NCBI GenBank assembly: GCA_937902925.1
Contig: CALFNN010000048.1
Location: 1 to 64,000 of the forward strand
DNA from: an uncultured Opitutaceae bacterium
GTDB taxonomy: Bacteria > Verrucomicrobiota > Verrucomicrobiia > Opitutales > Opitutaceae
Length of the DNA stretch: 64,000 nucleotides
Direction: 5' to 3'
The notes below the pieces were generated by a model. The model made no database searches, was not told the DNA's origin, and worked only from the letters and a program-made list of their open reading frames with translations. This document shows positions 11,778-44,390 of the stretch, in pieces. Both the position numbers and the translations under genes were made by a program. Position 1 is the stretch's first letter. Every line of letters begins with the position of its first letter.

Positions 11778-11807
11778 CGCGATGCTGCCGGGACCCACCG
11801 GGCCGGC

Positions 11808-15408: not shown

Positions 15409-15468
15409 GATGTAAGGTTGGGGTGGTTTGTCCCTTAAAACACGGTAGGCCACCGGGTCGCGACGAGA

Positions 15469-15510
15469 CAGTGGGTGGAGACCTGAAATCCGGCGGGGGT
15501 CCGCACCCAA
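15469..15510 (-). promoter_or_regulatory. shared upstream element, copy 2
   Basis: On the minus strand TTGGGTG is followed 28 bases on by CACCCACTG, ending about 60 bases before the GTG start of the PAS kinase. It includes TTTCAGGT, also present in the copy before the subtilase gene. The rest of the 15409-15647 gap shows nothing else I can name. Confidence 0.35.
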
Positions 15511-15647
15511 TGAACGTCGGTTGTAAGTGACGACGGACCCCGCAGGCGCGGGCCCGTTCCGCGGGGCATCGCCCGGTGGCGGCGGACCGCCCGCGGCCGC
15601 CGGGCTGCGAATCGCGCGATCGCCGGGTGGTCCCGTGTGGGATGCAC

Positions 15648-22618: not shown

Positions 22619-23845
22619 TCAGCGGCAGACGCTGTCGGACACGGGCCAGCCCACCGCAGCCCGCCCACCGTGTGAAGCCAGCGCGCAATGCGGCACGACC
22701 AGCGGGCCACCGGACACGGCGCGAGAATAAATGTCGATCGTGGCCTCGGCGGTGTCGCTCCAGTCGAATCGGCGCGCCCGCTCCAGTCCCGCCGCCCGCA
22801 ATTGTTCGCGCATGGGTTCATCGTCCGCGAGGCGGGCGAGTTGCACCTTGATCTGGTCGACGTCCTCCGGATCGAGGGATGCGGCGGCGTCGTGGCAGAC
22901 CTCGCGGAGCGCGCCGCGCGTGGCGGCGAGCACCGGACACCCGCACGCCATCGCCTCCAGCGGCGGCAACCCGAAGCCCTCGAAGAGCGAGGGGTAGACA
23001 AAAACGTCGGCCGCGCGATACCACATCGCCAGGTCGGCATCCGGCACGAAGCCGAGGCAGCGGACGTCCTCGCGATAGGGCGACTGCCGGATGGCGGCGT
23101 GGATCGCGGGTGCCCCGTGCCAGTCGCTGCCCCCGAGCACGAGCTGCCACGGCGAGGGCGACTCCGCCTTGAAGCGATTGAACGCCGCGATGAGCCGCAC
23201 GTGATTTTTCGCGGGATGCTCGAGGCGCGCGACGTAGAGGAAAAACGGCGGGCGCAGGCCGTGGCGTTGCAGGATGGCGGCCCGGGCCTCCGTCCGGCCG
23301 TGCGGCGTGAACCGCGCGTGGTCGAGACCGTTGGGGATCACGCTGACGCGCTGCGGCGGCACCCGGAAATACGTGCCGATGTCGCGCGCGGTGGCCCGGC
23401 TCACGGTGATGATTTCGTCCTGGCGCCGCGCCAGCTGTCGCACGGCGATCCGGCCGTAGAGCATCCGGGCCCAGTCGTATTTGTGCGGCACGTGGAACGG
23501 CGCGAGGTCGTGGATCGTGGCAACGAGGGCGCACGGGCGCGGCCAGAGCATCCGGCGGTAGCTCGGCACGTGCAGCACGTCGAGCCCGAGTTGCCGGGCG
23601 AGCCGGGGAAGCTCCACTTGGTGCCAGAGGATGTTTTTCGCCGGCGCCCGGTGGCGCTCGGCGACGGGGACGAGCCGCACCGCGTCGCGGGCGAAATCGA
23701 ACAGCGGCAAATCCTCCTCGAGCACAAACAGCGTCAGCCGGGGCCGGCGCTCCGCCGCGAGCAGCGCGCGCACGAGCGCGAGCACATACTGGCCGACGCC
23801 CGACCGGCCGCGCTGCATCACGGAGGTGGTAATGCCGACGTGCAT
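22619..23845 (-). CDS. GT4-type glycosyltransferase
   Basis: 408 aa from the ATG at 23845 (MHVGITTSVMQRGRSGVGQYV); this start shares one base with the stop of the WecG-STAS gene (TGATG), so translation is coupled. The N-terminal Rossmann half has the GVGQY loop. The C-terminal half has the GT4 signature: VSVIPNGLD, LYVARLEHPAKN and the EX7E motif in LFEGFGLPPLEAMACGCPVL. Such enzymes transfer a sugar from a nucleotide-sugar with retention during capsule, exopolysaccharide or O-antigen assembly in the cytosol. With the WecG-type partner it forms a two-gene unit; the rest of a polysaccharide pathway is not in this window apart from the export genes at 5.8-9.9 kb. Confidence 0.92.
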   Translation of the reverse strand: MHVGITTSVMQRGRSGVGQYVLALVRALLAAERRPRLTLFVLEEDLPLFDFARDAVRLVPVAERHRAPAKNILWHQVELPRLARQLGLDVLHVPSYRRMLWPRPCALVATIHDLAPFHVPHKYDWARMLYGRIAVRQLARRQDEIITVSRATARDIGTYFRVPPQRVSVIPNGLDHARFTPHGRTEARAAILQRHGLRPPFFLYVARLEHPAKNHVRLIAAFNRFKAESPSPWQLVLGGSDWHGAPAIHAAIRQSPYREDVRCLGFVPDADLAMWYRAADVFVYPSLFEGFGLPPLEAMACGCPVLAATRGALREVCHDAAASLDPEDVDQIKVQLARLADDEPMREQLRAAGLERARRFDWSDTAEATIDIYSRAVSGGPLVVPHCALASHGGRAAVGWPVSDSVCR

Positions 23846-25365
23846 CAGGCCGCCTCCAGCAGCGTTTCGTCGAGGCCGGAAAGCTCCAGCACGTTGCGCA
23901 CGTTGGCCTGCGCCCCGACGAAATGAATTTCGAGTTCCATCTGCTCCGCCCAGCGTTGCAGGCGCAGCATCAGGGCGGCGCCGGTGCTGTCGATGAACCG
24001 CAGGCGCGAGAGGTCGATCGGGAAGGCCTCGCGGGTCCCGCCAAGTTCGAGGAGGTGTTGCACCGTCCGGTCCCAGACCTCGCCGGTGTTCGCCGCGGTG
24101 ATCTCGCCCGCCCACGCAACCGAGCGGATCGATCCGCCGGGTTGGACGATCATGGAACCGTCCGGGAAAGTTTCCATTTGCTGCGCCGCCTCCGCCACGC
24201 TGCGAGCGATGACAAAATGATCGGTCAGCCGCAGCCGGTCCAGCGCGTCGCGCACCGCCGCACTGGGTGACAACACCACGAACCGCCGGGCGCGGGCGTT
24301 CAGTTGCTGGCGCCAGCGCCCGAGCAGCGCCACGCCGGTGCTGTCGATGGCCTCGACCCGGGACAAATCCAGCAGACAGTCGCGCGTCTCCGCGCGCAAC
24401 TCCTGCCAGCGCGCGGCATGCCGGCGCAGCGCTTCGGCCGTGAGCAGCCGGCCGGCCTCGACGCGCAGCCAGCGATAGGTGTGGCAGGCCCCGGGCGGAA
24501 CCGACAGGCCGGCGGGGTCGGTGCGGCGATGCAACCGCCAGGCCTGCTTGGCGAGCGCGGGCAGAAAGCGGAGCAGGTCGTCGGCATAGCGCCGAAACAA
24601 CCGCCGCGGTTCCTGCAGCAGGCGGAAAATCCATTCGGTGCCGCTCTGGCGCATCCAGACCGGCGCGCGGCGCACCCGGCCGGCGAGGAAATCGATCGTG
24701 GCGCCGACGCCGATCACGACCGGCACGCCGAGTCCGCGGTGGTGCATCGCGATCCATTTTTCCTGCTTCGGGCAGCCGAAGGAAACCAACAGCACGTCGG
24801 GCCGGGCGGCGCGGACGCGCCGGACAATTTCCTCGTGATCCATTTCCAGCAGGCCGGCGAAGGGCGGGGCGTAATGGCCGGCGACTTGAAGCGCGGGATA
24901 TTGGGAACGGAGTCGCGCCGCGGCGGCGGCCGCGACACCCGGCGCCGCGCCGAGGAAAAACACCCGCCGCCCGTTCGCCGCCGCCGCCGCGATGAGGCGG
25001 GGCACGATGTCCGCCCCGGCGGCCCGCCCGGGAAGCCGGTTGCCGAGACAGCGTGACGCCCACACCAACGGCGTGCCGTCGCAGAGCACAAGATCGGCCT
25101 CCAGCAGAATCCGGCGCAGCTCGACATCGCGGCTGGCCTGCACGAGAAAATCGACGTTTGCGGTGACGACGTAGTGGGGACGCCGAGTCGCGATCATGGC
25201 GTCGATCCGGCCGACCGCGTCGGCGAGCGCGACGTGATCGAAGGGAATCCCAAGAATCGCGACCGGCCAGCCGGCGGCGGCGCGCTCGCCGGTTTCGCCG
25301 GCGGCTGTCGCCGGGCCCGGCCTGGCGCGGGCCTCGGGCCTGGCGGAAATGGTGGCGGCGGTCAT
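23845..25365 (-). CDS. WecG/TagA/CpsF-family glycosyltransferase fused to two STAS domains
   Basis: 506 aa from the ATG at 25365 (MTAATISARPE). The WecG/TagA/CpsF (GT26) part, residues about 33-250, is clear: VVTANVDFLVQASRD, LCDGTPLVWASR, RVFFLGAAPG, LLVSFGCPKQEKW and VGATIDFLAGRVRRAP. After a basic helical linker come two STAS (anti-sigma-factor-antagonist-like) domains at about 285-395 and 400-506. Each holds the DSTG motif with its phosphorylatable Ser: Ser342 in AIDSTGVALL and Ser460 in FIDSTGAALM. The transferase adds a sugar to a lipid-linked intermediate. The STAS pair could tie the enzyme to a kinase or switch network (inference). Confidence 0.9.
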   Translation of the reverse strand: MTAATISARPEARARPGPATAAGETGERAAAGWPVAILGIPFDHVALADAVGRIDAMIATRRPHYVVTANVDFLVQASRDVELRRILLEADLVLCDGTPLVWASRCLGNRLPGRAAGADIVPRLIAAAAANGRRVFFLGAAPGVAAAAAARLRSQYPALQVAGHYAPPFAGLLEMDHEEIVRRVRAARPDVLLVSFGCPKQEKWIAMHHRGLGVPVVIGVGATIDFLAGRVRRAPVWMRQSGTEWIFRLLQEPRRLFRRYADDLLRFLPALAKQAWRLHRRTDPAGLSVPPGACHTYRWLRVEAGRLLTAEALRRHAARWQELRAETRDCLLDLSRVEAIDSTGVALLGRWRQQLNARARRFVVLSPSAAVRDALDRLRLTDHFVIARSVAEAAQQMETFPDGSMIVQPGGSIRSVAWAGEITAANTGEVWDRTVQHLLELGGTREAFPIDLSRLRFIDSTGAALMLRLQRWAEQMELEIHFVGAQANVRNVLELSGLDETLLEAA

Positions 25366-25506
25366 GCGCCGATTGAACGCCGGCGCGGTCGCGGCGGGTA
25401 TGGGGACTGTCCCTTCCTTCCCGCGGGCCGGCGCCAAAACCCGCATCGAAACTGGGGCCAACACCCACTTTGGCGGACCGCCGCGGTAATTTAAACTGCT
25501 GGCGAA
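25366..25506. promoter_or_regulatory. divergent promoter region between the glycosyltransferase unit and the NRPS/PKS operon
   Basis: 141 bases separate two divergent starts. The right end is AT-richer (GGTAATTTAAACTGC, 25485-25499) and probably carries the NRPS operon promoter. CACCCACTTTG at 25462-25472 matches half of the element found before three minus-strand genes. No clear ribosome site precedes the ATG at 25507. Confidence 0.4.
25462..25472 (+). promoter_or_regulatory. shared upstream element, half-copy before NRPS operon
   Basis: CACCCACTTTG, 35-45 bases before the first NRPS start, preceded by ACTGGGGCC, matches the second half of the elements at 9935 and 15469 (CACCCACTG). The first half is not conserved. 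Confidence 0.25.
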
Positions 25507-28500
25507 ATGACCCGCCAAACGAAGTCCCGCGCGAAGCGTCGCGTCGACGCGTATCCGTTGTCCCCGCTGCAGCAAGGCATGCTCTACCACACGCTCGCCG
25601 GCCGGGAGCCGGGAGTGGACGTGGAACAGGTGTATTGCGAGTTGGGCGGGCCGCCCGACGCCGCGGTGCTCGCGGAGGCGTGGCGGATCGTCGTCGAGCG
25701 CCACGAGATCCTGCGCACGTGCTTCGACTGGCCGGCGGGCGGCGAGCCGCGGCAGATGGTCCTGCCGGCATCGGAGGTGAATTGCGCGGTGCGGGAGATT
25801 TCCTGGGGCGCCGGGGTGCCGGACGGGCCCGGCTCATACCTGGAAGCCGACCGCCGGGAGAGCTTCGACCTCGCGGTGGCGCCGCCGTGGCGGCTCGCGC
25901 TGGTTCAACCCGCAGAGGGCCGCCGCTGGTTGGTCTTCACTTTTCACCACGTGTTGCTCGACGGGCGCGCCCTGGCCGCGGTCTTGCGCGAGACGTTCGA
26001 TCTTGCCGATGCGCTGGCGGCGGGCGGCCAGCCGGCGCCGGCGCCGGCGCACCGTTACCGGGACTACATCGATTGGTTGCAGGCGCTCGACTGGACGCGC
26101 GCGGAAAAATACTGGCGCGAGCAGTTGCGCGGTTTCACGCAGGCCACGCCGCTGCCGTTTCCCCCGCCGGCCGACGCGCTCGCCGTGGCGGCGGGAACGG
26201 AGCTGCGCCACGAGGTGGAGCTGCGGTTCGACGCCGCGGCGACCGCGCGCCTCCACGCCGCGGCGCGGCGGCACGACGTGACGCTCAACACGCTCGTCCA
26301 GGCCGCGTGGGCGGTGACGCTCGGCCGCCACGGAGGGGAGCGCGACGTGGTGTTTGGCGCGGTGCGCGCCTGCCGGCATATTCCCATCGAAGGCGCCGGA
26401 TCGACGGTCGGCTTGTTCATCAACACGGTGCCCGTGCGGGTCCGCCTCGAGCCCGACGGCGAGCTGGGCCCGTGGCTGCAGGACCTGCGCGAGCAGTGGC
26501 TCGCGCTGCGCGACCACGAGCACGCGCCGCTGGCGAAGGTCCAGCAGTGGAGCGAGGTGCCGGCCGGCCAGCCGTTGTTCGAGACGCTCGTCAATTTTCA
26601 GGAGCCGTCGTGGGATGCCGCGCTGCGCGCGCTGGGCGGAAAGTGGCTGGACCGGCGCTTTGCCATTCGCAGCCAGCCGAACTTTCCCCTCGCGGTGGAC
26701 GCCTACGGCGGAGCGGAGCTGGTCATCAAGCTGCTGCACGACCGGCGGCGCGTCGCCGACGAGGCCGCGGTGCGGTTGCTCGGGCACTATCGCACGGTGC
26801 TCGAGGCGATGACCGACGACGCGCCGCCGCGGCTCGGCGATCTCCCGTTGCTCACGCCGGCGGAGACGCGGCAGGTGCTCGTCGAGTGGAACCACACCAC
26901 GGAGGAGTTCCCGCGCGCCCGTTGCGTGCATCAGTTTTTCGAGGCCCGGGCGAAGGATGCCCCCGGGCGCCTCGCGGTGGCCGATGCGGGCGCACGGCTC
27001 ACCTACGGGGAACTGAACCGCCGCGCCAACCAACTGGCGCACCGGCTGAAGTCGTTCGGAGTCGGGCCCGAGGTGCCGGTCGCAGTGTGCCTGGAGCGAT
27101 CCGTCGAGATGATCGTTGCCTGGCTCGGAATCGTGAAGGCCGGGGGCGCGTGGGTGCCGTTGGATCCGGAGTATCCCGCGGCGCGGCTGGCCTTTCAACT
27201 GCGCGACTGCCGGGCGCCGGTGGTGCTGACGCAACCGCGTTTTTGTGCCGTGCTCGCGGCGGCGGCGGATGCCACCGTGCTGACGATCACGGCGGCGGGC
27301 GGCGAATTCCGTGACGAGCCCGAGGGGAACCTCGCGGTGGTCACGACTGCGCGCAACCTCGCCTATGTCATCTACACGTCGGGTTCCACGGGGGAGCCGA
27401 AGGGAGTCGAGGTCGAGCACCGGGCGCTGCTCAATCTCGTGACGTGGCACCGGCGGACTTATCGCGTCACCGCGGACGACCGCGCGTCGCAGCTCGCCAG
27501 CCCGGCGTTTGACGCCGCCATCTGGGAAATCTGGCCGTATCTCGCCGCGGGCGCGAGCGTGCACATCGTCGATGCGGAAACCCGGCTGGCGCCGGCGGCG
27601 TTGGTGACCTGGCTGGGGCAAAACGAAATCACGCTCGCTTTTCTCCCGACGCCGCTGGCCGAGGCGGTGATGGAGGAATCCTGGCCCGCGGGGACGCGGC
27701 TGCGGGCGCTGCTCACCGGGGGCGACCGGCTCCAGCGGAGACCGCCGGCCGAATTTCCCTGTGCGGTCATTAATCACTACGGGCCGACCGAGGGCACGGT
27801 CGTCGCGACGAGTTCGACGGTGGCGCCGCACGGGCCCGCCTTGCTCACGCCGGCAATCGGCCGGCCGATCGCCAATACGCGCGCTTACGTGCTCGATGCC
27901 CGGGGCCGGCCGGTTCCGGCCGGGGTGGCGGGCGAGTTGTTCATCGGGGGCGAGGGCCTGGCGCGGGGTTATCTCGGCCGGCCGGAATTGACCGCCGAAA
28001 AATTTGTCCCGGATCCGTTTCACCCGACGCGCGACGCGCGACTCTATCGGACGGGTGACTTGGTGCGCTGGCGTGCCGACGGGGAACTCGAGTTCATCGG
28101 CCGCCGCGATGAACAAGTGAAGATCCGGGGCTGCCGGGTGGAGCCGGCGGAAATCGAAACGGCGCTCAACGCGCACCCCGCGGTGCGCGAAAGCCTCGTC
28201 GTCGCCTGCGACGGGCCGGCGGGACAGCGGCGGCTCGCCGGCTATGCGCTCGCGCGCGCCGGGGCGGCGCGGCCGACGCGGGCGGAGTTGGAAGGTTTCC
28301 TGCGAAAATCCCTGCCTGCGCACATGGTCCCGTCGGCGTTCGTCTGGCTGGCGGCCTGGCCGCTGACCCCGAACGGCAAGATCGACCGGCGGGCGTTGCC
28401 GTCCCCGGCCAGCGGCCCCGAGACCGATCCGGCCTTCACCGCACCGCGCAAGCGGCTCGAGCAGACGGTCGCACGCATCTGGATGGAAGTTCTTGGCCGC

Positions 28501-28755
28501 GGCGCCATCGGCGTGGAGGACGGGTTTTTCGCGCTCGGCGGCCACTCGCTGCTCGCTGCGCGCGTGATCGCGCGGCTGCACGCCGCCGGTCACCCGGCGG
28601 CGTCGGTGCGCCTGTTGTTCGATCACCCGACGCTCGGCGAATTTGCCCGCGCGCTCGCGGATCTGATCCCCACCGGTGACCGGCCGCGGCCACCCGTGCG
28701 CCTGTTCAAGCGGCATCACGCCGCGGCGAGACCCGTCCTGGCCCGAGCCGGGTGA
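25507..28755 (+). CDS. NRPS module 1: condensation-adenylation-thiolation (Leu-like)
   Basis: 1082 aa. C domain at about 14-450 with the active motif HHVLLDG (147-153); its start ([15 protein letters not shown]) and the LLDG variant look more like DCL or starter types than LCL. A domain at about 470-975: [13 protein letters not shown] (A3), FDAAIWE (A4), YGPTEGT (A5), YRTGDLVRW (A7) and the A10 Lys in NGKIDRR. The binding-pocket residues I align to GrsA-PheA positions read D-A-W-F-L-G-H-V-V-K, one change from a published Leu code (DAWFLGNVVK). T domain with GGHSL, Ser1014. No epimerase. It is the first gene of the operon and its stop overlaps the next start (GTGA). Confidence 0.92.
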
Positions 28756-31700
28756 AGCCCGCCATGCACTCCGCACCCATCCTGATTCCCGCGAACGAGG
28801 CCGACGAAAATCCGCCGGTGGCGGAGCCGCCGCTTTTGCCCGCTTCGTCGGGCCAGCGGCGCCTCTGGTTTCTTGATCAGATGGAGCGGGGCCGTCCGCT
28901 CTACAACGTGCCCCAGCTCGTGCGGCTGCGCGGCCGGTTGGAGGAACGGGCGCTGGATCGGGCGCTGGCGGCGATCATGCAGCGGCACGAGGTGTTGCGC
29001 ACCTCCTTCGTCGCCGTGGGCACGGAGCCGATGCAAATCGTGGCGACCTCGTGGATGCTTGAGCTGCCGCTGACCGATCTCGAGGCGGTCGAACCCGGCC
29101 GGCGGGAAGCGGAACTGCACCGGCTGGCGGACGAGGAGGCCCGGCGGCCGTTCGACCTGGCCCAGGGCCCCATGCTCCGCGCGCGCCTGTTCCGGCTCGG
29201 CCCGACGGAGCACGCGCTGATGCTCGTGCTGCACCATATCGCGTCCGACGGCTGGTCGATGGCGGTGCTCTATCGCGAACTCGGGGAATCCTACGCCGCA
29301 TGCGCCCGGGGCGCCGAGGCGCGTCTGCCCGAGCTCCGGGTGCAATACGCGGATTTTGCGGCCTGGCAGGGCGACGGCCTCCGGGGAATGGCGCTCGACC
29401 GGCTCCTGGGATTTTGGAAACAACAACTGGCGGGCGCGCCCGCGGTGCTGGAGTTGCCGACGGACCGGGCGCGTCCCCCGGTGCAGTCGCATCGCGGCGC
29501 AATCGTAAGCGAGCGGTTTTCGCCCCGGTTGCTCGCGGACCTGACCGCGTTCAGCGTGCGACGGCGCGCGACGCTGTTCATGACCCTGCTCGCGGCGTTC
29601 AACGTGGTGCTCCAGCGGCATTCGGGGCAGGACGACATCGTCGTCGGTTCGCCGCAGGCCGGCCGCGACGAGGCGGAGACCGAGAACCTGATCGGCTTTT
29701 TCATCAACACGCTGGCGCTGCGCACGAATCTCGCCGGCGATCCGACGTTCACGGAGCTGCTGGATCGCGTCCGGGACGTGACGCTCGCCGCCTTCGAGCA
29801 TCGCGAGCTGCCGTTCGAAAAACTCGTCGGGGAACTGCAGCCGGAACGCAACCTGAGCTTCGAGCCGGTGTGCCAGGTGATCTTCGCGTTGCAGAACATG
29901 CCGGTCGCCCCGCTGACGATGCCCGGCCTCGAGGTCGCCATCGAGCCCGTCCACACGGGGACGGCGAAAACCGACCTTTCGGTCTGGGCGAGCGAGGAGG
30001 AGGGCGGGTTGCTGGTCACGGCCGAATACGCGACGGATTTGTTCGAGGCGGGGACAATGCGGCGATGGCTGGGGCATTTTCGCACGGTGCTGGAAAGCAT
30101 CGTGGTGGACGCCGACCGCCCGCTTTCCCAATTGCCGCTCCTGACCCGGGCGGAGAGACAGCAGCTCGAGACGGCGTGGAACGCAACGCACACGGACTAC
30201 GACCGGGAAAAAACCGTCGCGGAATTGTTCGCGGCGCAGTGCGCCCGGACGCCCGCCGCGGTGGCGCTGGTGTTCGAGGGCCGGGAGCTTACCTACGCTG
30301 CGCTCGACGCGCGGGCGGAGCGGCTGGCGGCGCGCCTGCGGGAACTCGGAGCCGGCGCCGACGTGCTCGTCGGAGTCTGCGTCGAGCGTTCGCTGGAAAT
30401 GATGGTCGGGCTGCTGGGCATCCTGAAGTCGGGTGCGGCCTATGTGCCGCTCGACCCGACCTATCCCGCCGAGCGACTGGCGTTCATGCTGCAGGACGCG
30501 GAGGCGCCCGTGCTGGTCACCCAACGGGCGTTGCTGCCGAAACTCCCGGCGCACTCGTGCGCGGCGATCTGCGTGGACGACGAGCCGGCCGGATCATCCC
30601 CGCCGTCCGTCGGCGAAGGGCGGCACGGCGCGCCGGCCTCGGCGGATAACCTGGCCTACGTGCTCTACACGTCCGGCTCCACGGGAAACCCGAAAGGCGT
30701 GATGGTCACGCACCGCAACGTGGTGAACTTTTTTGCCGGCATGGACCGCGTGCTCGGGACCGAACCCGGAGTGTGGCTGGCCGTGACCAGCATTTCCTTC
30801 GATATCTCGGTGCTGGAGTTGTGCTGGACGCTGACGCGCGGCTACAAGGTGGTGATCCTGTCCGACCGGGCCCGCCTCGGCGACGCCGGTGCGCCGCGCC
30901 GTGGCCGCGAGGGAAGGGCGGTGGACCTCAGCCTGTTTTATTTTGCGAGCGACGACGCGTCGAACCAGGGCGAAAAATACCGGTTGCTGCTGGAGGGGGC
31001 GAAGTTTGCGGACACCCATGGCTTTGGCGCGGTGTGGACGCCCGAGCGGCATTTTCATTCGTTCGGCGGACTCTACCCGAACCCGGCGGTCACGAGCGCG
31101 GCGATCGCGGCGGTGACGCAGCGCGTGCAGATCCGGGCCGGCAGCGTCGTGCTGCCGCTGCACGATCCCCTGCGCGTGGCCGAGGAGTGGTCGGTGGTGG
31201 ACAACCTTTCGGGCGGCCGCGTGGCGCTGTCCTTCGCCACAGGCTGGCACGACCGCGATTTCGCGCTCGCGCCGCAAAACTACGCCACGCGGAAGGACGT
31301 GATGCGGGAGGGCATCGACATCGTGCGCCGGCTCTGGCGCGGCGAGGAACGGCGCGTCACCGGCGGGCGCGGCGGCGAACTGACGGTAAAGATTTTTCCG
31401 CGCCCGGTGCAGCGGGAGCTGCCGGTCTGGGTCACCACGGCGGGCAACGTTGAAACCTTCCGGCTCGCGGGCGAGCTGGGCGCGAACGTGCTCACGCACC
31501 TGCTCGGGCAGGACGCCGCCGCGCTGGAGGAAAAAATCCGCGCCTATCGGGCGGCACGGGCGCAGCACGGGTTCGACGAGGGATGCGTGACGGTGGCGCT
31601 GCACACCTTCGTCGGCGACGACGCCGCGGCCGTCCGGCAGAAAGTGCGCGGGCCGTTCTGCCGTTACCTGATCGAATCGCTGGATTTGTTGAAAGCGCTC

Positions 31701-33167
31701 TCCGAATCGCTGTTTCCCGGCGTGCGCTACGACCGGCTCACGGCGCCCGAGCAACAGTTGCTCGCGGAGCACGCCTTCGAGCGTTTCTTCGGCGTCAACG
31801 CGCTGTTCGGCACGCCGGAGACGTGTGGGCGCGTGGTGGAAAATCTCGGGCGGATCGGCGTCGACGAGGTCGCCTGCCTGATCGATTTCGGCGTGGACAC
31901 GGATTCGGCGCTCGCCGCGCTGGCGCCGCTGGCGCGCGTGCGGGAGGAATGCCAGCGCCAGCCGGAGCCGGCGGGCGAGGATTATTCCCTCGCCGCGCAG
32001 CTCGCGCGGCACGGCGTCACGCATTTGCAGTGCACGCCGTCGTTCGCGCGGCTCCTGGCCGCCGCACCCGATTCGTGGCGCGCGCTCCGGCCGTTGCGCA
32101 AGCTGCTGGTGGGGGGCGAGGCGCTGCCCGCCGGCCTGGCGGACGAACTCGCCCGGGGCACCGACGGTGACGTGATCAACATGTATGGCCCGACCGAGAC
32201 GACGATCTGGTCGACGACCCATCGCGTCTCGCGCGACGAGGAGCATACGGGGACCGCGGCGATCGGCCGGCCCGTCGCGAACACGCAGGTTTATCTCTGC
32301 GATCCGCGCCTCCGGGCGGTGCCGATCGGCGTGCCGGGGGAACTTTATCTGGGCGGAGACGGCGTCGCGCGCGGCTACTGGCGCCGGCCGGAACTCACGG
32401 CGGAGAAATTTCTCGCGAACCCGTTCCGGCCGGGCGAACGGATTTATCGCACGGGCGATCTCGCGCGCTACCGGTCGGACGGCACGATCGAATTCCTCGG
32501 TCGCACCGATCACCAGGTCAAGCTGCGCGGCCACCGCATCGAACTCGGGGAGATCGAGGCGGCGCTGGGCCGGCATCCGGCCGTCCGCCACTGCGTGGTC
32601 GTGCTGCGCGCCGAGCCCCCGGGCGAACCGCGGCTGGTCGCCTACCTCGTGGCGGGAGAAAAGGCCCCGCCGGTCGCGGAGGAGCTGAAGGATTTTCTCC
32701 GCCGCGGACTGCCTGCGCAGATGGTGCCGGAAGTTTTCGTGCCGGTTGCGCGTCTGCCGCTGACGCCGAATGGCAAAGTGGACCGCAAGGCCCTGCCCGC
32801 GCCGCAGACGGAACGGCCGCCGGCCGCCGCCGCCTTCGCCGCGCCCGCCGCCGGCCTCGAGCAGACCATCGCGGCGGTGTGGAAGGATGTCCTCGCGATC
32901 GATCAGCCCGGGGCCGACGATAATTTTTTCGAGTTCGGCGGACATTCCCTGCAGGTCGTGCAGGTGCAGGGCCGGTTGCGGGAGGCGCTCGGGGTCGAGC
33001 TGCCGGTCATCAAGCTCTTCCAGCATCCCACCATTCGTTCGCTGGCCCGACACCTCGCCGGCGAAACGACCGACGGGGACTTCCAGCAGAAAATCGCGGA
33101 CCGGGCGCGACGCGGCCGAGCCGCCCCCATTCACCGCCGGCCCAACGGAGCCGGTGTCCACGCATGA
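28752..33167 (+). CDS. NRPS module 2: C-A-T with a luciferase-like monooxygenase inserted in the A domain (Gly-like)
   Basis: 1471 aa. C domain with HHIASDG at 161 (LCL type). The A domain starts near 480 (YVLYTSGSTGNPKG, then FDISVLEL at 684) and is interrupted at about 720-1065 by a flavin-dependent luciferase-like monooxygenase: DLSLFYFASDDASNQGEKY, FGAVWTPERHFHSFGG, GSVVLPLHDPLRVAEEW, LSGGRVALSFATGWH, VWVTTAGNVETF. This is the MupA/Atu3671-type insert known from some natural-product enzymes. The A domain resumes with YGPTETTIW at about 1145. Pocket residues read D-I-L-Q-L-G-M-I-W-K, close to a published Gly code. T domain Ser1399 in GGHSLQ. The oxygenase presumably oxidises the bound Gly unit or the growing chain (inference). 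Confidence 0.92.
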   Translation: MKPAMHSAPILIPANEADENPPVAEPPLLPASSGQRRLWFLDQMERGRPLYNVPQLVRLRGRLEERALDRALAAIMQRHEVLRTSFVAVGTEPMQIVATSWMLELPLTDLEAVEPGRREAELHRLADEEARRPFDLAQGPMLRARLFRLGPTEHALMLVLHHIASDGWSMAVLYRELGESYAACARGAEARLPELRVQYADFAAWQGDGLRGMALDRLLGFWKQQLAGAPAVLELPTDRARPPVQSHRGAIVSERFSPRLLADLTAFSVRRRATLFMTLLAAFNVVLQRHSGQDDIVVGSPQAGRDEAETENLIGFFINTLALRTNLAGDPTFTELLDRVRDVTLAAFEHRELPFEKLVGELQPERNLSFEPVCQVIFALQNMPVAPLTMPGLEVAIEPVHTGTAKTDLSVWASEEEGGLLVTAEYATDLFEAGTMRRWLGHFRTVLESIVVDADRPLSQLPLLTRAERQQLETAWNATHTDYDREKTVAELFAAQCARTPAAVALVFEGRELTYAALDARAERLAARLRELGAGADVLVGVCVERSLEMMVGLLGILKSGAAYVPLDPTYPAERLAFMLQDAEAPVLVTQRALLPKLPAHSCAAICVDDEPAGSSPPSVGEGRHGAPASADNLAYVLYTSGSTGNPKGVMVTHRNVVNFFAGMDRVLGTEPGVWLAVTSISFDISVLELCWTLTRGYKVVILSDRARLGDAGAPRRGREGRAVDLSLFYFASDDASNQGEKYRLLLEGAKFADTHGFGAVWTPERHFHSFGGLYPNPAVTSAAIAAVTQRVQIRAGSVVLPLHDPLRVAEEWSVVDNLSGGRVALSFATGWHDRDFALAPQNYATRKDVMREGIDIVRRLWRGEERRVTGGRGGELTVKIFPRPVQRELPVWVTTAGNVETFRLAGELGANVLTHLLGQDAAALEEKIRAYRAARAQHGFDEGCVTVALHTFVGDDAAAVRQKVRGPFCRYLIESLDLLKALSESLFPGVRYDRLTAPEQQLLAEHAFERFFGVNALFGTPETCGRVVENLGRIGVDEVACLIDFGVDTDSALAALAPLARVREECQRQPEPAGEDYSLAAQLARHGVTHLQCTPSFARLLAAAPDSWRALRPLRKLLVGGEALPAGLADELARGTDGDVINMYGPTETTIWSTTHRVSRDEEHTGTAAIGRPVANTQVYLCDPRLRAVPIGVPGELYLGGDGVARGYWRRPELTAEKFLANPFRPGERIYRTGDLARYRSDGTIEFLGRTDHQVKLRGHRIELGEIEAALGRHPAVRHCVVVLRAEPPGEPRLVAYLVAGEKAPPVAEELKDFLRRGLPAQMVPEVFVPVARLPLTPNGKVDRKALPAPQTERPPAAAAFAAPAAGLEQTIAAVWKDVLAIDQPGADDNFFEFGGHSLQVVQVQGRLREALGVELPVIKLFQHPTIRSLARHLAGETTDGDFQQKIADRARRGRAAPIHRRPNGAGVHA

Positions 33168-36100
33168 ACCGGAGCGAAGCATCGGGCGAGAGCATCGCCA
33201 TCATCGGGCTCGCGGGACGGTTCCCGCGCGCGGAAAACCTGCGCGAATTCTGGCGCCACCTGCGGGAAGGACGGGAAATGGTGAGTTTTTTTGGGGATGA
33301 CGAGGTCGAGTGGTCGCGCTTCGACGGGCCGCCGGAGAGTCGCAGCAACGTGGTAAAAGCGCGCGCCGTGCTCGAGCGGGCCGAATGGTTCGACGCCGGG
33401 TTCTTCGGCGTCACGCCGCGGGAGGCCGAGAGCACGGATCCCCAGCACCGGGTCCTGCTCGAGTGCGCGTGGGAGGCGCTGGAAAATGCCGGCGTCGATC
33501 CCGGGACGTTCGACGGCCTGATCGGTGTGTTTGCCGGTGCGAGCATGAACACCTACCTGCTCAATAATATCCTCGCGCCCGGCGCCGCCGTCACGCCGCC
33601 GGGCGGGCTTCAGTTGATGCTGGCGGGCGAGAAGGATTTCCTGACGACGCGGATTTCCTACAAGTTGAATCTGCGCGGACCGAGCCTGAACATCCAGACG
33701 GCCTGCTCGACGTCGCTGGTCGCCGTCGCCGTCGCGTGCCAGAACCTGCTGTCCTACCAGTGCGACCTCGCGCTCGCGGGAGGAGTCTCGATCACGTTTC
33801 CGCAGAAGAAGGGCCAGCAGCACCAGGAGGGCGCCATCGTCTCGCCCGACGGGCATTGTCGCGCGTTCGATGCGCGCGCCGCCGGGACCGTGGGCGGCGA
33901 CGGTGCCGGCCTCGTGGTGTTGAAGCGGCTGCCCGAGGCGCTGGCGGATGGCGACCACATCCATGCGATCATCCGCGGCACGGCGGTGAACAACGATGGC
34001 GCGCTCAAGGGCGGCTACACCGCGCCGAGCAGCGATGGCCAGGCCGAGGTGATCGCGCTGGCGCAGGCGGCGGCGGGGGTCGAGCCGGACACGATTTCCT
34101 ACATCGAGGCGCACGGCACGGCCACGCCCATCGGGGACCCGATCGAGGTCGCAGGGCTGACGAAGGCGTTTGGCGGGCGGACGCGGGCGCGGCATTTCTG
34201 CGCGCTCGGGTCGGTCAAGAGCAACCTCGGGCACCTGGATGCGGCCGCCGGCATCGCCGGGCTGATCAAGACGGTGCTGGCGCTGCAACAGGGCGAACTG
34301 CCGCCGACGCTGCACTTCGAGCGGCCGAACCCGAAGATCGATTTCGACCACAGTCCGTTTTTTGTGAATGGCACGCTGCGCGCGTGGCCGCGCGGCGCCG
34401 TGCCGCGGCGGGCGGGGGTGAGTTCGTTCGGGATCGGCGGCACCAACGCGCATGTCGTCCTCGAGGAAGCGCCGCTCCCGCCGGCGTCCGGCGCCTCGCG
34501 GCCGTGGCAGTTGCTGTTGTTGTCCGCGAAGACGCCGACCGCGCTGGAGGCGGCAACCCGCAATCTCGTCGCGCACCTGCGGGAAAACCCGGAGGCGAAC
34601 CTGGCGGACGTGGCCTACACCCTGCAGACCGGCCGCCGGCCGATGCGCCACCGGCGCATGGTGGTCTGTCAATCCGTCGCGGATGCGATCCAGGCGCTGG
34701 AATCCGGCGACACGGCCCGCGTCTTCACGGGCGAGACCAGCGGGAGCGGGACGCCGGTGGCTTTCATGTTTCCCGGCCAGGGCGCGCAACGCGTCAACCT
34801 GGGCCGCGAGCTTTACGCGATCGAGCGGGATTTCCGCGCCGAGATCGACGCCTGCTGCGAGGCGATGAAACCGCGGCTGCGGCTCGACCTGCGCGAGGTG
34901 ATGTTTCCGGCGACGGAATGCACGGAGGAGGCGGCGGCGCGGCTCGGCCAGACGATGCTGACCCAGCCGGCGTTGTTCACGATCGAGTTCGCCCTGGCGC
35001 GGCTGTGGCAGAGCTGGGGAATCCGCCCGCAGGCCATGCTCGGCCACAGCCTCGGCGAATACGTCGCCGCGTGCCTCGCCGGCGTGCTGAGCCGCGACGA
35101 CGCACTTGCACTGGTCGTGGAGCGGGCGCGATTGATGCAAAAGCAGCCGCCCGGGGCGATGCTGGCCGTGCGGCTGCCGGAGCAGGAACTGGTCGCGCAA
35201 CTGGGGCCGGGGCTTTCGCTGGCGGCCGTCAATGCGCCGAACCTCGGCGTCGCCTCGGGGCCGGTCGACGCGATCGCGGCGCTGGAGCAGCGGCTCGCAC
35301 TGCGGGGAGCGGCGGGCCGGCGGCTGCCGACGTCGCACGCGTTCCATTCCGCCATGATGGAGCCGGTCATGCCGCGGTTCGCGGAAACCGTGCGCGGATT
35401 CCGGCTGCAGCCGCCGCAGATTCCCTGGGTGTCGAATGTCACGGGCCGGTGGATCACCCCGCAGGAGGCGGGCGATCCGAATTATTGGGCGGCGCACCTC
35501 CGGCACACGGTGCGCTTTGCCGACGGGGTCGGCCGGCTGGCGGCGGGAGAATGCCGCGCGGCGCTCGAGGTGGGGCCGGGCCAGACGCTCGCGACGCTGG
35601 CGCGGCAGCATCCGGCGACGGCGGCCGGGGCGGTCGCCGTGGTCGCCTCGCTCGGCAAAACGGGGAAAAACGATTCCGAGTGCGCGAGCCTGTTGCACGC
35701 GCTCGGCCGGCTGTGGATCGCGGGAGTGGCGGTCGACTGGCGGGGATTTTACGCGCACGAGCAGCGCCGGCGGATGCCGTTGCCGACCTATCCGTTCGAG
35801 CGGAAGCGGTATTGGATCGATCCCGCCGGTGCCACCGCGGAGACCACGCCCGCGGGGAAGAGCGAGGCGACGGAACCGGCGCCGGCGGGCGGCGATGGCA
35901 TTGTGGCGGAGCTCCGGAAGATTTTCGGCGGGCTGTCGGGCATCGATCTTTCGTCGGAGAGCGCGACGGCGTCTTTTTTCGAGCTGGGTTTCGATTCGCT
36001 GTTCCTGACGCAGGCGAGTCTCGCGGTGCAGCGGCGCTTCGGCGTCGAGGTGAGCTTTCGCCAGTTGCGGGAGGAGTTGGTCACGCTGGAAAAACTGGCG

Positions 36101-39100
36101 GCCCGCCTCGAGCAGCGGCCGGCAATGGCGGGGACGACGGGCGGCGGGACGACGGCGATCACCAGCCGGCCGGACTCCGCGGTCCTGCCGCTGACGGATG
36201 CGCAACGGGAAGTCTGGTTTGCAGCGCAGCTCGGCCCGGAGGTTTCCTCGGCCTACAACGAGTCCTGCCGCCTGCATCTGCGCGGCGACCTCGACGTGGC
36301 CGTGCTCAAGTCGGCGCTGCAGGAAGTCGTCGGCCGCCACGAGGCGTTGCGCACGACCGTGAACCGGGAAGGCGACGGGCAGCGGATCGCGGCCGGCGTG
36401 GAGATCGAGCTCCCGGTCGCGGACCTTTCGGATTTGGCGGAAACCGAGGCGGAGACGCGGGCGGGCCGGCTGATCGAACGCGAGGCGCAGGAACCGTTCG
36501 ACCTGGTGCGCGGACCGCTGCTGCGCGCGCATCTCGTGCGGGTGAGCGGCCGCCACCATCTGCTGATGATCGCGGTGCACCACGTGATTTGCGACGGCTG
36601 GTCGCTGGGCGTGATGCTCGGGGAAATCGGCCAGCTTTACTCCGCGAGTTGCCGCGGGGTGGCGGCCGGGTTGCCGCCGCCCGTGCAATTTGGCGCCTAT
36701 GCGGCGCGCGAGGCGGAGGCGCAACGGACGCCGGCGTTTGCGGCCGACGAGGCCTACTGGCTCGCGCAGTTCGCGGACGGCGTGCCGGTGCTGGAGTTGC
36801 CGGCGGACCGGCCGCGGCCGGTGGCCCGCACCTACGCGGCCGGGCACCGGTTGCACACGTTGCCGCCGGGGGTCGCCGCGGCGGTGAAAAAACTCGGCGC
36901 CGGGCACCAATGCACGACGTTCGCGGTGCTGCTCGCGGCGTTCAACGTTCTGCTGCACCGGCTGAGCGGCCAGGACGAAATCGTGGTCGGCGTGCCAGCG
37001 GCGGCCCAGGTGCTCGGCGGGGCGGAGAGCCTCGTCGGCCATTGCGCCAATCTGCTGCCGGTGTGCAGCCGGCTGGTCCCGGAGCAACCGTTCGGGGCCT
37101 ACCTCGACGCCACGCGCCAGAAACTTTTCGAGGTGCTGGAGCACTGGCGGTATCCGTTCGGGCGGCTGGTGCAAAAGCTGAACCTGCCGCGCCACCCGAA
37201 CCGGGTGCCGCTGGCGAACGTCGTGTTCAACGCCACGCGGCTGCGCGGGGCACTGCGGTTCGAGGGGCTCGAAGCCGAGGTGACGGGCAATGCCAAGCGC
37301 TTCGTGAACTTCGACCTGAACTTCAACTTCGCCAGCACGGGCGACTCCCTTTCGTTCGGTTGCTACTACAGCGCGGAATTGTTCGACGATGCGACGATCG
37401 AGCGGCTGCTGGGACAGTATCAGACACTGCTCGAAGGCATCGCGGCGGATTCGACGACTCCGGTGTCCGCCCTGCCGCTGCTGGAGCCGGTGGAGCGACG
37501 GCGCCTGCTCCGCGACTGGAACGACACGGCGATGGATTTTCCCGGCGAGTGCTGCATCCACCAGTTGTTCGAGGCCCAGGCGCGGCGAACCCCGGAGGCG
37601 ACGGCGCTGGTCGGCGGACGCGAACGGCTGACGTATCGCGAACTGAACGAGCGGGCCGATGCGCTCGCCACGCGCCTGCAGGCGGCCGGCGTGGGCCCTG
37701 ACCGCCTGGTGGGGATCTATCTCGAACGAACCCCGCTGCTGGTCATTTCGCTTCTCGCGGTGCTCAAGGCCGGCGGGGCCTATGTGCCGCTCGATCCCGC
37801 CTATCCGGCGGAGCGGCTCGCGCTCATCGCCGGTCACGCGCAGTGGCCGGTGCTGCTGACCAAACGAAAACTTGCCGACCGTCTGCCGGCGGGCGACGCG
37901 AACGTCGTCATGGTCGACGACCCATCGGCCGAACCGGCCGCCGCCGGCCTGTCCCCGACGGCTGCTCGCGCGACCGGCGGAAATCTTGCCTATGTGATCT
38001 ACACTTCCGGTTCGACGGGCCGGCCGAAGGGCGTGGCGATCGAGCATCGGAGCGTGGTGGCGCTGATTGCCTGGGCGTGCCGGAACTACGAGCCCGCGGA
38101 ACTGGCGGGAGTCCTTTGCGCGACGTCGGTGTGTTTCGACGTTTCCGTGTTCGAGCTGTTTGTGCCGCTCTGTGCCGGCGGCAAAGTCATCCTGGCGGAC
38201 AACATTCTCCACGTGCCGTCGCTGCCGGCGGCGGGTGAAATCACGCTGCTCAGCACCGTGCCGTCGGCGGCCGCCGAGTTGGTGCGGGCGAATTACATCC
38301 CGGCTTCGGTTCGCACGATCAACCTCGCGGGCGAGGCGCTGCCGCAGCGGCTCGTCGAGGAACTGTATCGGTTGCCCCACATCGAGCGGGTCTTCGATCT
38401 CTACGGACCGACGGAGTCCACGGTTTACTCGACCTGCGCACTGCGCCAGCGCGGCGGGCGGGCGACGATCGGCCGGCCGCTGGCCAACGAACAGGCCTAC
38501 ATCCTCGATCGCTGGCGCCAGCCGGTGCCCATCGGTGTGGCGGGCGAGCTTTATCTGGGCGGGGCGGGTCTGGCCCGCGGTTACCTGGGCCGGCCGGAAT
38601 TGACGGAGGAGAAATTCGTGGCGAATCCGTTCGGTCCCGGCGCGAGGATGTATCGCACCGGAGACCGGGCGCGCTACCGGGCGGACGGGAGCATCGAGTA
38701 TCTCGGGCGCCTCGACCACCAGGTGAAGCTGCGCGGGTTTCGCGTCGAGCTCGGAGAAATCGAGACGGTGCTGCGCCAGCATCCGGCCGTGGGCGAATGC
38801 GTCGTCGTGGTGCGGGCGGATCGCCCGGGCGACCAGCAGCTCGTGGCCTACGTCACCCCGGACCGCGGCGGCCGGCCGGATCCCGGCGACTTGCGCCGGC
38901 ACGTGGAGCAGCGATTGCCGGCCTACATGGTGCCGGCGGCGACGGTGGTATTGGAAAAGCTGCCCGTGACGCCGAACGGCAAGGTCGACCGCCGGGCGCT
39001 GCCCGCGCCCGGGCAGGGCGGCACGGACGGCGGCGGCGGCGAGGCGGCGCCGCGCACAACGACCGAGGAACTGCTGGTGGAGATCTGGAGCGCGGTGCTC

Positions 39101-39352
39101 GGGCGGGGCAGCATGGGCATCCACGCCAACTTCTTCGAGCTGGGCGGCCACTCCCTGCTCGCGGCGCAGGTCATCGCGCGGGTGCGCGACGGGTTGGGCG
39201 TCGAGCTGACGCTGCGGCAGTTTTTCGCCGCGCCCACGGTGGCCGGGCTGGCGCGGGCGGTGGAGGAGGCCCTGGTGGAGGAAATCAAAACAATGTCGGA
39301 CGAGGAGGCGAGCCGGCAGGCCGGCGAGGCCATGTTATCCGGGAGGAGCTGA
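33164..39352 (+). CDS. PKS-NRPS hybrid: KS-AT-ACP-C-A-T
   Basis: 2062 aa. KS at 10-430 with Cys181 in TACSTS, His in EAHGTATPIGDP and KSNLGH. AT at about 530-830 with Ser629 in GHSLGEY; the HAFHS motif indicates malonyl-CoA. There is no KR, DH, ER or MT between AT and ACP, so the added unit should stay a beta-ketone. ACP Ser945 in GFDSLF. C domain with HHVICDG at 1139. A domain at about 1465-1960 with [14 protein letters not shown] and YGPTESTVY; pocket residues read D-V-F-S-N-A-L-V-Y-K, a small-residue pattern nearest to Ala codes (uncertain). T domain Ser1997 in GGHSLL. Its ATG overlaps the previous stop (ATGA). It lengthens a peptide by malonate and then an amino acid. Confidence 0.93.
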   Translation: MNRSEASGESIAIIGLAGRFPRAENLREFWRHLREGREMVSFFGDDEVEWSRFDGPPESRSNVVKARAVLERAEWFDAGFFGVTPREAESTDPQHRVLLECAWEALENAGVDPGTFDGLIGVFAGASMNTYLLNNILAPGAAVTPPGGLQLMLAGEKDFLTTRISYKLNLRGPSLNIQTACSTSLVAVAVACQNLLSYQCDLALAGGVSITFPQKKGQQHQEGAIVSPDGHCRAFDARAAGTVGGDGAGLVVLKRLPEALADGDHIHAIIRGTAVNNDGALKGGYTAPSSDGQAEVIALAQAAAGVEPDTISYIEAHGTATPIGDPIEVAGLTKAFGGRTRARHFCALGSVKSNLGHLDAAAGIAGLIKTVLALQQGELPPTLHFERPNPKIDFDHSPFFVNGTLRAWPRGAVPRRAGVSSFGIGGTNAHVVLEEAPLPPASGASRPWQLLLLSAKTPTALEAATRNLVAHLRENPEANLADVAYTLQTGRRPMRHRRMVVCQSVADAIQALESGDTARVFTGETSGSGTPVAFMFPGQGAQRVNLGRELYAIERDFRAEIDACCEAMKPRLRLDLREVMFPATECTEEAAARLGQTMLTQPALFTIEFALARLWQSWGIRPQAMLGHSLGEYVAACLAGVLSRDDALALVVERARLMQKQPPGAMLAVRLPEQELVAQLGPGLSLAAVNAPNLGVASGPVDAIAALEQRLALRGAAGRRLPTSHAFHSAMMEPVMPRFAETVRGFRLQPPQIPWVSNVTGRWITPQEAGDPNYWAAHLRHTVRFADGVGRLAAGECRAALEVGPGQTLATLARQHPATAAGAVAVVASLGKTGKNDSECASLLHALGRLWIAGVAVDWRGFYAHEQRRRMPLPTYPFERKRYWIDPAGATAETTPAGKSEATEPAPAGGDGIVAELRKIFGGLSGIDLSSESATASFFELGFDSLFLTQASLAVQRRFGVEVSFRQLREELVTLEKLAARLEQRPAMAGTTGGGTTAITSRPDSAVLPLTDAQREVWFAAQLGPEVSSAYNESCRLHLRGDLDVAVLKSALQEVVGRHEALRTTVNREGDGQRIAAGVEIELPVADLSDLAETEAETRAGRLIEREAQEPFDLVRGPLLRAHLVRVSGRHHLLMIAVHHVICDGWSLGVMLGEIGQLYSASCRGVAAGLPPPVQFGAYAAREAEAQRTPAFAADEAYWLAQFADGVPVLELPADRPRPVARTYAAGHRLHTLPPGVAAAVKKLGAGHQCTTFAVLLAAFNVLLHRLSGQDEIVVGVPAAAQVLGGAESLVGHCANLLPVCSRLVPEQPFGAYLDATRQKLFEVLEHWRYPFGRLVQKLNLPRHPNRVPLANVVFNATRLRGALRFEGLEAEVTGNAKRFVNFDLNFNFASTGDSLSFGCYYSAELFDDATIERLLGQYQTLLEGIAADSTTPVSALPLLEPVERRRLLRDWNDTAMDFPGECCIHQLFEAQARRTPEATALVGGRERLTYRELNERADALATRLQAAGVGPDRLVGIYLERTPLLVISLLAVLKAGGAYVPLDPAYPAERLALIAGHAQWPVLLTKRKLADRLPAGDANVVMVDDPSAEPAAAGLSPTAARATGGNLAYVIYTSGSTGRPKGVAIEHRSVVALIAWACRNYEPAELAGVLCATSVCFDVSVFELFVPLCAGGKVILADNILHVPSLPAAGEITLLSTVPSAAAELVRANYIPASVRTINLAGEALPQRLVEELYRLPHIERVFDLYGPTESTVYSTCALRQRGGRATIGRPLANEQAYILDRWRQPVPIGVAGELYLGGAGLARGYLGRPELTEEKFVANPFGPGARMYRTGDRARYRADGSIEYLGRLDHQVKLRGFRVELGEIETVLRQHPAVGECVVVVRADRPGDQQLVAYVTPDRGGRPDPGDLRRHVEQRLPAYMVPAATVVLEKLPVTPNGKVDRRALPAPGQGGTDGGGGEAAPRTTTEELLVEIWSAVLGRGSMGIHANFFELGGHSLLAAQVIARVRDGLGVELTLRQFFAAPTVAGLARAVEEALVEEIKTMSDEEASRQAGEAMLSGRS

Positions 39353-39354
39353 GC

Positions 39355-43572: not shown

Positions 43573-44390
43573 ACCGGGGCTGGAGCAACGTCGACCCGGT
43601 CGCGGGCCCCCGGACAAATGACGCGGGCCGCGGCATCCCGGCCCTGCCGTTGCAGGGCGACGAAGTGCACGTGTGGTGGGCCCGGCTGGACGAGGCCGCC
43701 CGGGAGGAGCCGCCGGAGGCGCGGGCGGCGCTCTCGCGGGACGAATTGGAACGGGCGGCACAGTTTTATTTCGCGAGCGACTCCCGGCGCTATGTCGCCG
43801 GCCGGACGATTCTGCGCCGGCTGCTCGGTCGTTATCTCGGGCGGAATCCGGCCAGTCTGGCCTTCGCTTACGGCCGCCACGGCAAGCCGCGGCTGGTGTC
43901 GGCGCCGCACCGGGCCGCCATCTTTTTCAACGTGACCCACGCGGACGGGCTGGCCCTGTTTGCCATCACGCGCAGTGACGAGGTGGGCATCGACGTCGAG
44001 CGCGTGCGCGAAATTCCCGAATGGGAGCGGATCTCGGCCGCGTGCTTCGATCCGCGCGAGCACGTGCGCCTCCGCCGCGTGCCGTCCGCGCACCGGCGCG
44101 AGGCGTTCTTCCGGGCGTGGACGCGCCAGGAGGCCGTGCTGAAGGCGCTCGGCCTCGGCCTGGGCGGCCCGCTGCCGCCGGCCGGCCGGGGGGCGCTCGA
44201 CGAGTTTTCCGTGCGCACGTTCCTCCCGGCTCCGGGCTATGTGGCGGCGCTGGCGGTGGCCCGGGGCGGCTGCCGCACGAGCTGCGTGGCATGGCCCCGC
44301 GGCGATCCGCTGACGGCGGGCCGGATCGCCCAAAGCGGATGGCCGGCGCGGGATGGAAACGGCCGCGGAACCGGAGGCGAAATCTCATGA
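43569..44390 (+). CDS. Sfp-type 4'-phosphopantetheinyl transferase
   Basis: 273 aa. It has the Sfp-family metal-binding motif VGIDVERV and the second signature FFRAWTRQEAVLKALGLGL (family usual W-x-x-K-E-A; here the Lys is Gln, while the catalytic Glu and downstream Lys are kept). The fold half around GRTILRRLLGRYL and FFNVTHADGL also fits. It moves phosphopantetheine from CoA to the T and ACP Ser residues of the four synthases. The start overlaps the thioesterase gene's stop (ATGA), so it belongs to the operon. The C-terminal 40 residues look poorly conserved. Confidence 0.92.
   Translation: MNRGWSNVDPVAGPRTNDAGRGIPALPLQGDEVHVWWARLDEAAREEPPEARAALSRDELERAAQFYFASDSRRYVAGRTILRRLLGRYLGRNPASLAFAYGRHGKPRLVSAPHRAAIFFNVTHADGLALFAITRSDEVGIDVERVREIPEWERISAACFDPREHVRLRRVPSAHRREAFFRAWTRQEAVLKALGLGLGGPLPPAGRGALDEFSVRTFLPAPGYVAALAVARGGCRTSCVAWPRGDPLTAGRIAQSGWPARDGNGRGTGGEIS

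Follow-up and report, generated by a model that had tools for sequence, protein, structure and literature searches.

A glycine-type adenylation domain interrupted by a luciferase-like monooxygenase in an Opitutaceae NRPS–PKS line: a candidate alpha-hydroxyglycine module ahead of a polyketide synthase

The window analysed here is a 64,000-nt stretch of contig CALFNN010000048.1 (assembly GCA_937902925.1) from an uncultured Opitutaceae bacterium, and our subject is a monooxygenase (MOx) domain that sits inside an adenylation (A) domain of a hybrid nonribosomal peptide synthetase–polyketide synthase (NRPS–PKS) line at 25507-43572. The line consists of four colinear megasynthase genes in the order C-A-T / C-A(MOx)-T / KS-AT-ACP-C-A-T / C-A-T-TE (C, condensation; T, carrier; KS, ketosynthase; AT, acyltransferase; ACP, acyl carrier protein; TE, thioesterase), followed by genes for a 4'-phosphopantetheinyl transferase (PPTase) and an ATP-binding cassette (ABC) transporter (Table 1). 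The second gene, NRPS 2, is a single open frame of 1471 codons. Using Pfam, we located Condensation at residues 30-472, an AMP-binding match split in two (best part 493-708), Bac_luciferase at 734-1038, AMP-binding_C at 1267-1342 and PP-binding at 1371-1435. The NCBIfam profile TIGR04020 matches residues 726-1064 over positions 1-341 of its 341, scoring 488.9 bits where the curated cut-off is 244.45. The A4 and A5 motifs lie 462 residues apart; the spacing in the line's other three A domains is 90, 89 and 94. These results bear out the initial annotation, which had described a luciferase-like insert of the MupA/Atu3671 type between A4 and A5 at this place and of this length; by its A4-A5 spacing, the insert has the myxothiazol/melithiazol-type position. 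A motif search found A3, A4, A5, A7, A8 and A10 as well as the GGHSL of the T domain, which keeps its serine; the C domain likewise looks intact by sequence. Aligned at the ten positions that we take as the pocket code, the A domain reads DILQLGMIWK, a Gly-type code identical to the one first noted. The glycine reading draws in part on PMC12283262; in that survey four MOX-bearing Gly domains all carry this same ten-letter pocket, and every MOX module of the study lies in a Gly domain. Chance, a frameshift or an assembly error as the source of the interrupted A domain was ruled out by the single open frame and by matching architecture in three other genomes (G006, G026 and G168), which indicates that the interruption is real. 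A long antisense open reading frame (ORF) at 30594-33182 (-) overlaps NRPS 2 and is of the kind expected at 69% GC.

The insert was compared with 88 other domains of its family, 76 of them embedded in A domains and 12 PKS-borne or free, among which 75 alignment columns are near-invariant (conserved in 95% or more). The window matches 74 of these columns, and the sole mismatch is a Met-to-Ala change at oxygenase residue 226 (protein residue 949, window 31596-31598). We modelled A(MOx)-T (960 aa) with AlphaFold from a 54-row alignment; the model has a mean predicted local distance difference test (pLDDT) score of 87.2 and a predicted template modelling (pTM) score of 0.70. Its best matches as a whole are NRPS modules, its parts match NRPS A domains, and the oxygenase part fits the oxygenase of PuwE (PDB 6ket), a member of the same family with the same fold, with a TM score of 0.93 on the target, an rmsd of 2.4 and 51% identity. 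Family-conserved residues and predicted fold together suggest an intact oxygenase, and we infer from the family that it uses flavin mononucleotide (FMN). The loss of flavin-binding residues that the initial annotation had named as a refutation appears not to have occurred, as far as conservation and the predicted fold tell.

Table 1. Features of the assembly line and its flanks, with coordinates in the window
Feature	Position	Strand	Basis
WecG/TagA-like glycosyltransferase with STAS domains, upstream	23845-25704	divergent to line	Pfam on flanking ORFs
NRPS 1, C-A-T, code DAWFLGHVVK (Leu-like)	25507-28755	+	Pfam; code alignment
NRPS 2, C-A(MOx)-T	28752-33167	+	ORF list, Pfam, NCBIfam TIGR04020
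NRPS 2 Condensation domain, HHIASDG	28839-30167	+	Pfam, motif
NRPS 2 A domain, N-terminal half, A1-A4; A4 FDISVLE at 30798-30818	30228-30875	+	Pfam, motifs
MupA/Atu3671-type FMN luciferase-like monooxygenase (TIGR04020)	30927-31943	+	488.9 bits, full length; 493.6 bits in whole-genome scan
NRPS 2 A domain, C-terminal part, A5-A10, AMP-binding_C; A5 YGPTE at 32184-32198; initial post-oxygenase residues are linker	31944-32777	+	Pfam, motifs
NRPS 2 T (carrier) domain, FGGHSL	32862-33056	+	Pfam, motif
Hybrid PKS/NRPS, KS-AT-ACP then C-A-T, code DVFSNALVYK (Ala-like)	33164-39352	+	Pfam, motifs, code
NRPS 4, C-A-T-TE, code DALWLGGTFK (Val-like); start is ATG right after preceding stop	39355-43572	+	Pfam (scanned from 38797), code
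4'-phosphopantetheinyl transferase	43569-44390	+	Pfam; relatives
ABC transporter, membrane + ATPase; listed ORF, whose real start is probably more downstream	44021-46084	+	Pfam; relatives

Two overlapping surveys show which hosts carry the insert. The first comprises the best 80 of 564 relatives from named genomes, chosen by closeness to the query, plus the window and three related genomes. Here 78 oxygenase copies follow the N-terminal half of an A domain, and in 72 of them the Gly-type code is complete (DI[LV]Q.G..W); the other six are five copies in decayed A domains and one ended by the contig end after D-I-L. The second comprises 30 genomes of this close-relative set, picked for holding a relative, with 97 TIGR04020 domains, 90 of which were read. 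A host A domain with recognisable A4 and A5 surrounds 39 of the 90, and all 39 show a partial code of Gly type, with D-I-[LV] at A4 and with A5 preceded by [MV] and followed by W; a further 36 are A-flanked without the motifs and 15 lie outside A domains. In a quick maximum-likelihood tree of 148 A domains (inserts removed; SH-aLRT, i.e. Shimodaira–Hasegawa-like approximate likelihood ratio test, only, without bootstraps), 70/71 MOx-bearing domains fall in one 72-row group (SH-aLRT 94); the remaining two members of this group have a Gly code and lack the insert. Outside this group stand the MOx-bearing L036 and five Gly-coded domains without insert, and the minimum number of changes is 3. The simplest reading of these sequences would be that the oxygenase entered a Gly A domain once, long ago, and was lost from a few. 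A Gly host is the rule for the MOx insert, and the apparent oddity and its answer are both already published. The initial annotation had found the glycine pocket odd for an oxygenase, as it offers no side chain to hydroxylate; this view did not hold, given the Gly-type code in 72/78 close relatives and 39/39 motif-bearing hosts and the alpha-hydroxylation of glycyl units in print. With this false puzzle removed, the glycine pocket is a signature of the insert, so that DILQ[LM]G[MV][IV]W in an A(MOx) domain can be taken, on first reading, as the mark of a candidate alpha-hydroxyglycine module.

The 36 A-flanked domains without motifs (L131, L136, L156, L165, L182, L191 and others) lie in A-like shells in 9/30 genomes, of which eight carry a myxobacterial label and one a Comamonas label. 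A C domain comes directly next in nearly all of these shells, and no T was found. In 28 shells scanned, the A2, A3, A5, A7, A8 and A10 patterns occur in none and A4 in one, while the C domain before the shell reads HHxxxDT in 25/28. The same patterns were recovered from eight intact controls in 3 (A2), 8 (A3), 8 (A4), 8 (A5), 8 (A7), 5 (A8) and 7 (A10) cases. The host A domain of the shells appears to have decayed round a retained oxygenase, judging from these motifs; a limited literature search recognised no published description of such shells.

In the lines for myxothiazol, an antifungal compound, and melithiazol, whose MOx proteins we take to be MtaG and MelG, a flavin oxygenase likewise lies between A4 and A5 of a Gly-activating A domain. 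There the MOx is said to hydroxylate the glycine alpha carbon (PMC10204066 and PMC11342130, both in part), and the myxothiazol mechanism is given likewise in PMC9396620 (in part). Compared by description, those modules are followed by TE and end in C-N cleavage to a terminal amide, whereas the present module is internal, with a PKS and two NRPS modules after it: NRPS 2 is not a last module running from T into TE but ends in T, the gene after it starts with KS, and the TE lies two proteins further downstream. The MOX domains of PMC12283262 (in part) also differ from ours, in that they are described as cleaving the backbone with terminal amide formation and that the survey puts such inserts generally at A8-A9. 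Module 4 of solanimycin SolF is an internal Gly module with a flavin oxygenase, like NRPS 2, and its alpha-hydroxyglycine is retained in solanimycin B (PMC10204066); unlike NRPS 2, it hands on to an NRPS and not to a PKS. Thirty-eight corallorazine-like pathways of Serratia and Pseudomonas have MOx in a Gly A domain (PMC11342130), yet these are short dipeptide lines whose MOx-variant products are only suggested. The PuwE oxygenase differs by its location between PKS and NRPS modules, outside A domains, and for its line the proposal is synthesis of a 3-amino-2-hydroxy acyl unit (PMC4219810, in part). The published mechanisms found are amide release or NRPS extension, the MOx-to-PKS case not having been specifically searched for. 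No further reaction assignment for the TIGR04020 domain was recognised in a limited search of the lobatamide/oximidine oxygenase and Atu3671/TIGR04020 literature, and the part of PMC11253843 available makes no mention of monooxygenase inserts. The domain type is already known; this cluster and its product are without characterisation in the literature found.

To place the setting among relatives, we took as the next step the next same-strand gene with a recognised domain. In the 78 relatives, A(MOx) is followed by KS in 39, C in 17 (five of them decayed shells) and TE in 6, and the step is unseen in 16. Hand-over to a PKS is therefore common in this sample, half of which passes the glycine unit to a PKS gene with no amide release. 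C-A(MOx)-T followed by KS-AT-T with no ketoreductase (KR) domain found also occurs in the actinobacterial loci L050, L072, L079 and L080. The less usual feature of the window is the setting as a whole, i.e. an internal MOx-Gly module feeding KS-AT-ACP without KR, then two NRPS modules and TE. Shorter arrangements were seen as well: in 22/78 copies (L037, L051, L057, L061, L091, L103, L114 and others) A(MOx)-T lacks a C domain and is followed by a KS gene, and 13 loci hold the exact pair A(MOx)-T then KS-AT-KR-T-TE, which corresponds to glycine plus one malonate with one oxidation. In L050, the only one of its kind scanned for this, KS-AT-T at 11563-16494 is followed by an NAD_binding_4 reductase-type domain, so the chain there may leave as aldehyde or alcohol.

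The four proteins of the line are also present in three genomes of the window's family, G006 (L115/L116), G026 (L117/L118) and G168 (L152/L153), at 52-62% identity. Their PPTases share 37-46% identity with that of the window, and the ABC transporter 73% (L115), 64% (L117) and 59% (G168). The first and last pocket codes are identical across all four genomes and the MOx module is Gly-type throughout; the post-PKS code varies (DVFSNALVYK, DIFSAALVYK, DLFNNALTYK and DLFN-ALTYK, the last with one position unread). The line has a WecG-like gene beside it in the window, G026 and G168. The oxygenases of G017, another genome of the family, are almost identical in sequence to those of a named uncultured Opitutae record (L094 and L119), which points to class Opitutae (Verrucomicrobiota) for the family. 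Within the phylum the domain is uncommon, as TIGR04020 scored above its cut-off in 6/57 genomes of the relatives search and in 4/288 drawn from the phylum (the window's genome is in both). The G026 line is colinear with that of the window, yet A(MOx) of L117 stands apart from the window/G006 pair in both the A-domain tree and the oxygenase tree, the latter likewise quick and with SH-aLRT only (G168 is in neither). This separation hints that the A(MOx) module of the G026 line was replaced. A tblastn search against plasmids returned many relatives, all below 60% identity.

The codes of the other modules allow a chain to be proposed. NRPS 1 is one residue from DAWFLGNVVK and NRPS 4 one residue from DALWIGGTFK, which, within a printed list, we take to be the Leu and Val codes, respectively; DVFSNALVYK is presumably Ala-like. 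The AT of the PKS module has the motifs GHSLG and HAFH, the latter presumably of malonyl type, and Pfam found no KR in this module. PMC12283262 (in part) lists both DAWFLGNVVK and DALWIGGTFK with the codes most often found in Leu, Ile and Val domains. The predicted chain order is thus Leu, Gly(OH), malonate, Ala, Val.

For the target of the oxygenase the initial annotation had offered three options, namely the alpha carbon or nitrogen of the glycine and, at a later stage, the chain after malonate addition, and we accept all three as possible. Because the surveys give glycine as the rule and alpha-hydroxylation is published, hydroxylation of carrier-bound glycine at its alpha carbon is the best reading. 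At a probability of roughly 0.72, NRPS 2 would be a Gly-activating elongation module whose MOx alpha-hydroxylates the glycyl unit, which is then passed to the PKS. The A domain would load glycine on T, the C domain would join it to the upstream residue, probably Leu, and the FMN oxygenase, supplied with reduced flavin by a separate reductase, would hydroxylate the alpha carbon of glycyl-S-T after condensation. The alpha carbon beside the thioester is the position where the PuwE relative is also proposed to act, and since the proposed chemistry of relatives is hydroxylation beside a carrier-bound thioester, alpha-hydroxylation of glycyl-S-T is favoured. The hydroxyglycyl thioester would be handed to KS-AT-ACP of the next protein for malonate extension without ketoreduction, and the chain would be joined to the Ala-like and Val-like residues and released by TE. 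The carbinolamide could be retained, dehydrated or captured by a neighbouring nitrogen. One rather unlikely outcome, a chemical guess as to its ring closure, is that condensation with malonate gives N-acyl-NH-CH(OH)-CO-CH2-CO-Ala, that loss of water gives an N-acyl imine and that the Ala amide N captures it, closing a 5-(acylamino)tetramic acid ring. If true, MOx would be a ring-forming handle instead of an amide-release device.

Several points weigh against alpha-hydroxylation in this setting. Neither the 78-copy nor the 30-genome set is a neutral sample, the one chosen by closeness and the other for holding a relative, and 36/90 domains are A-flanked without motifs, with decay shown for all but 8 of these. 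At residue 226 only the window and G006 have Ala, and 88/88 other domains have Met (G168 also has Met, G026 does not have Ala, and PuwE has Leu). The sequence shows domains, codes, conservation and a predicted fold; flavin use, substrate, position and timing are inferred. In myxothiazol and melithiazol, the best-described precedents, alpha-hydroxylation leads to C-N cleavage and terminates the chain, an outcome that would be self-defeating mid-line. Finally, solanimycin, in which a hydroxyglycine is retained, carries the insert at A8-A9 according to its authors (PMC10204066), and PMC12283262 (in part) calls the MOX reaction beta-hydroxylation before amide formation, unlike the other papers.

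Among the alternatives, N-oxygenation survives best, though we consider it improbable: the amino group of glycyl-S-T would be hydroxylated, before or after condensation, to a hydroxamate or oxime-type unit. Nitrogen oxidation is kept in view because an oxygenase domain is proposed to turn the glycine primer of the necroximes into an oxime (PMC7318616, in part), but the available part of that paper does not name the oxygenase family, and for the published A4-A5 MOx/Gly cases the alpha carbon is given as the site of action. The nitrogen, moreover, ends up in an amide when the elongation module contains a C domain, and no siderophore receptor was seen among the part of the flanking ORFs scanned. 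It is quite improbable that the oxygenase acts later, on the chain after malonate addition. PuwE, which lies outside A domains and has a 2-hydroxy acyl unit as its proposed product (PMC4219810, in part), and the oxygenases retained in decayed shells of large lines would fit such action; the location of the domain in a Gly module, the Gly codes of motif-intact hosts and the occurrence of A(MOx) before TE (6/78) and C (17/78, five decayed shells), with no malonate next, argue against it. We give a similarly low chance to C-N cleavage after hydroxylation as in myxothiazol, by which acyl-Leu would leave as an amide and glyoxylyl-S-T would prime the PKS. This is the published fate of chain-end MOx modules, but here the modules on either side of the MOx module stay together in four genomes, and this joint retention favours one continuous product. 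A silent oxygenase, with plain glycine incorporated as when hydroxylation is skipped to give solanimycin A (PMC10204066), is very improbable: the near-invariant Met that is Ala in the window speaks for it, and the 74/75 columns kept and the intact predicted fold speak against it.

The genes around the line were also scanned with Pfam. Downstream, on the opposite strand, lie genes for a Meth_synt_2 protein and a Rieske protein and dipeptide-transport genes; neither these nor the upstream WecG/TagA-like glycosyltransferase gene were counted in the line. One record, L060, is titled Comamonas sp. KCTC 72670, yet its MOx line hardly differs from the Myxococcus one (end branches of 0.03 and 0.05 in the oxygenase tree), so its label or contents may be mixed up. 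The genome of the window itself (G000) holds on contig C37 a second large NRPS/PKS region (L002/L003) with two more TIGR04020 domains, each of which sits between PKS domains and a KR-like region.

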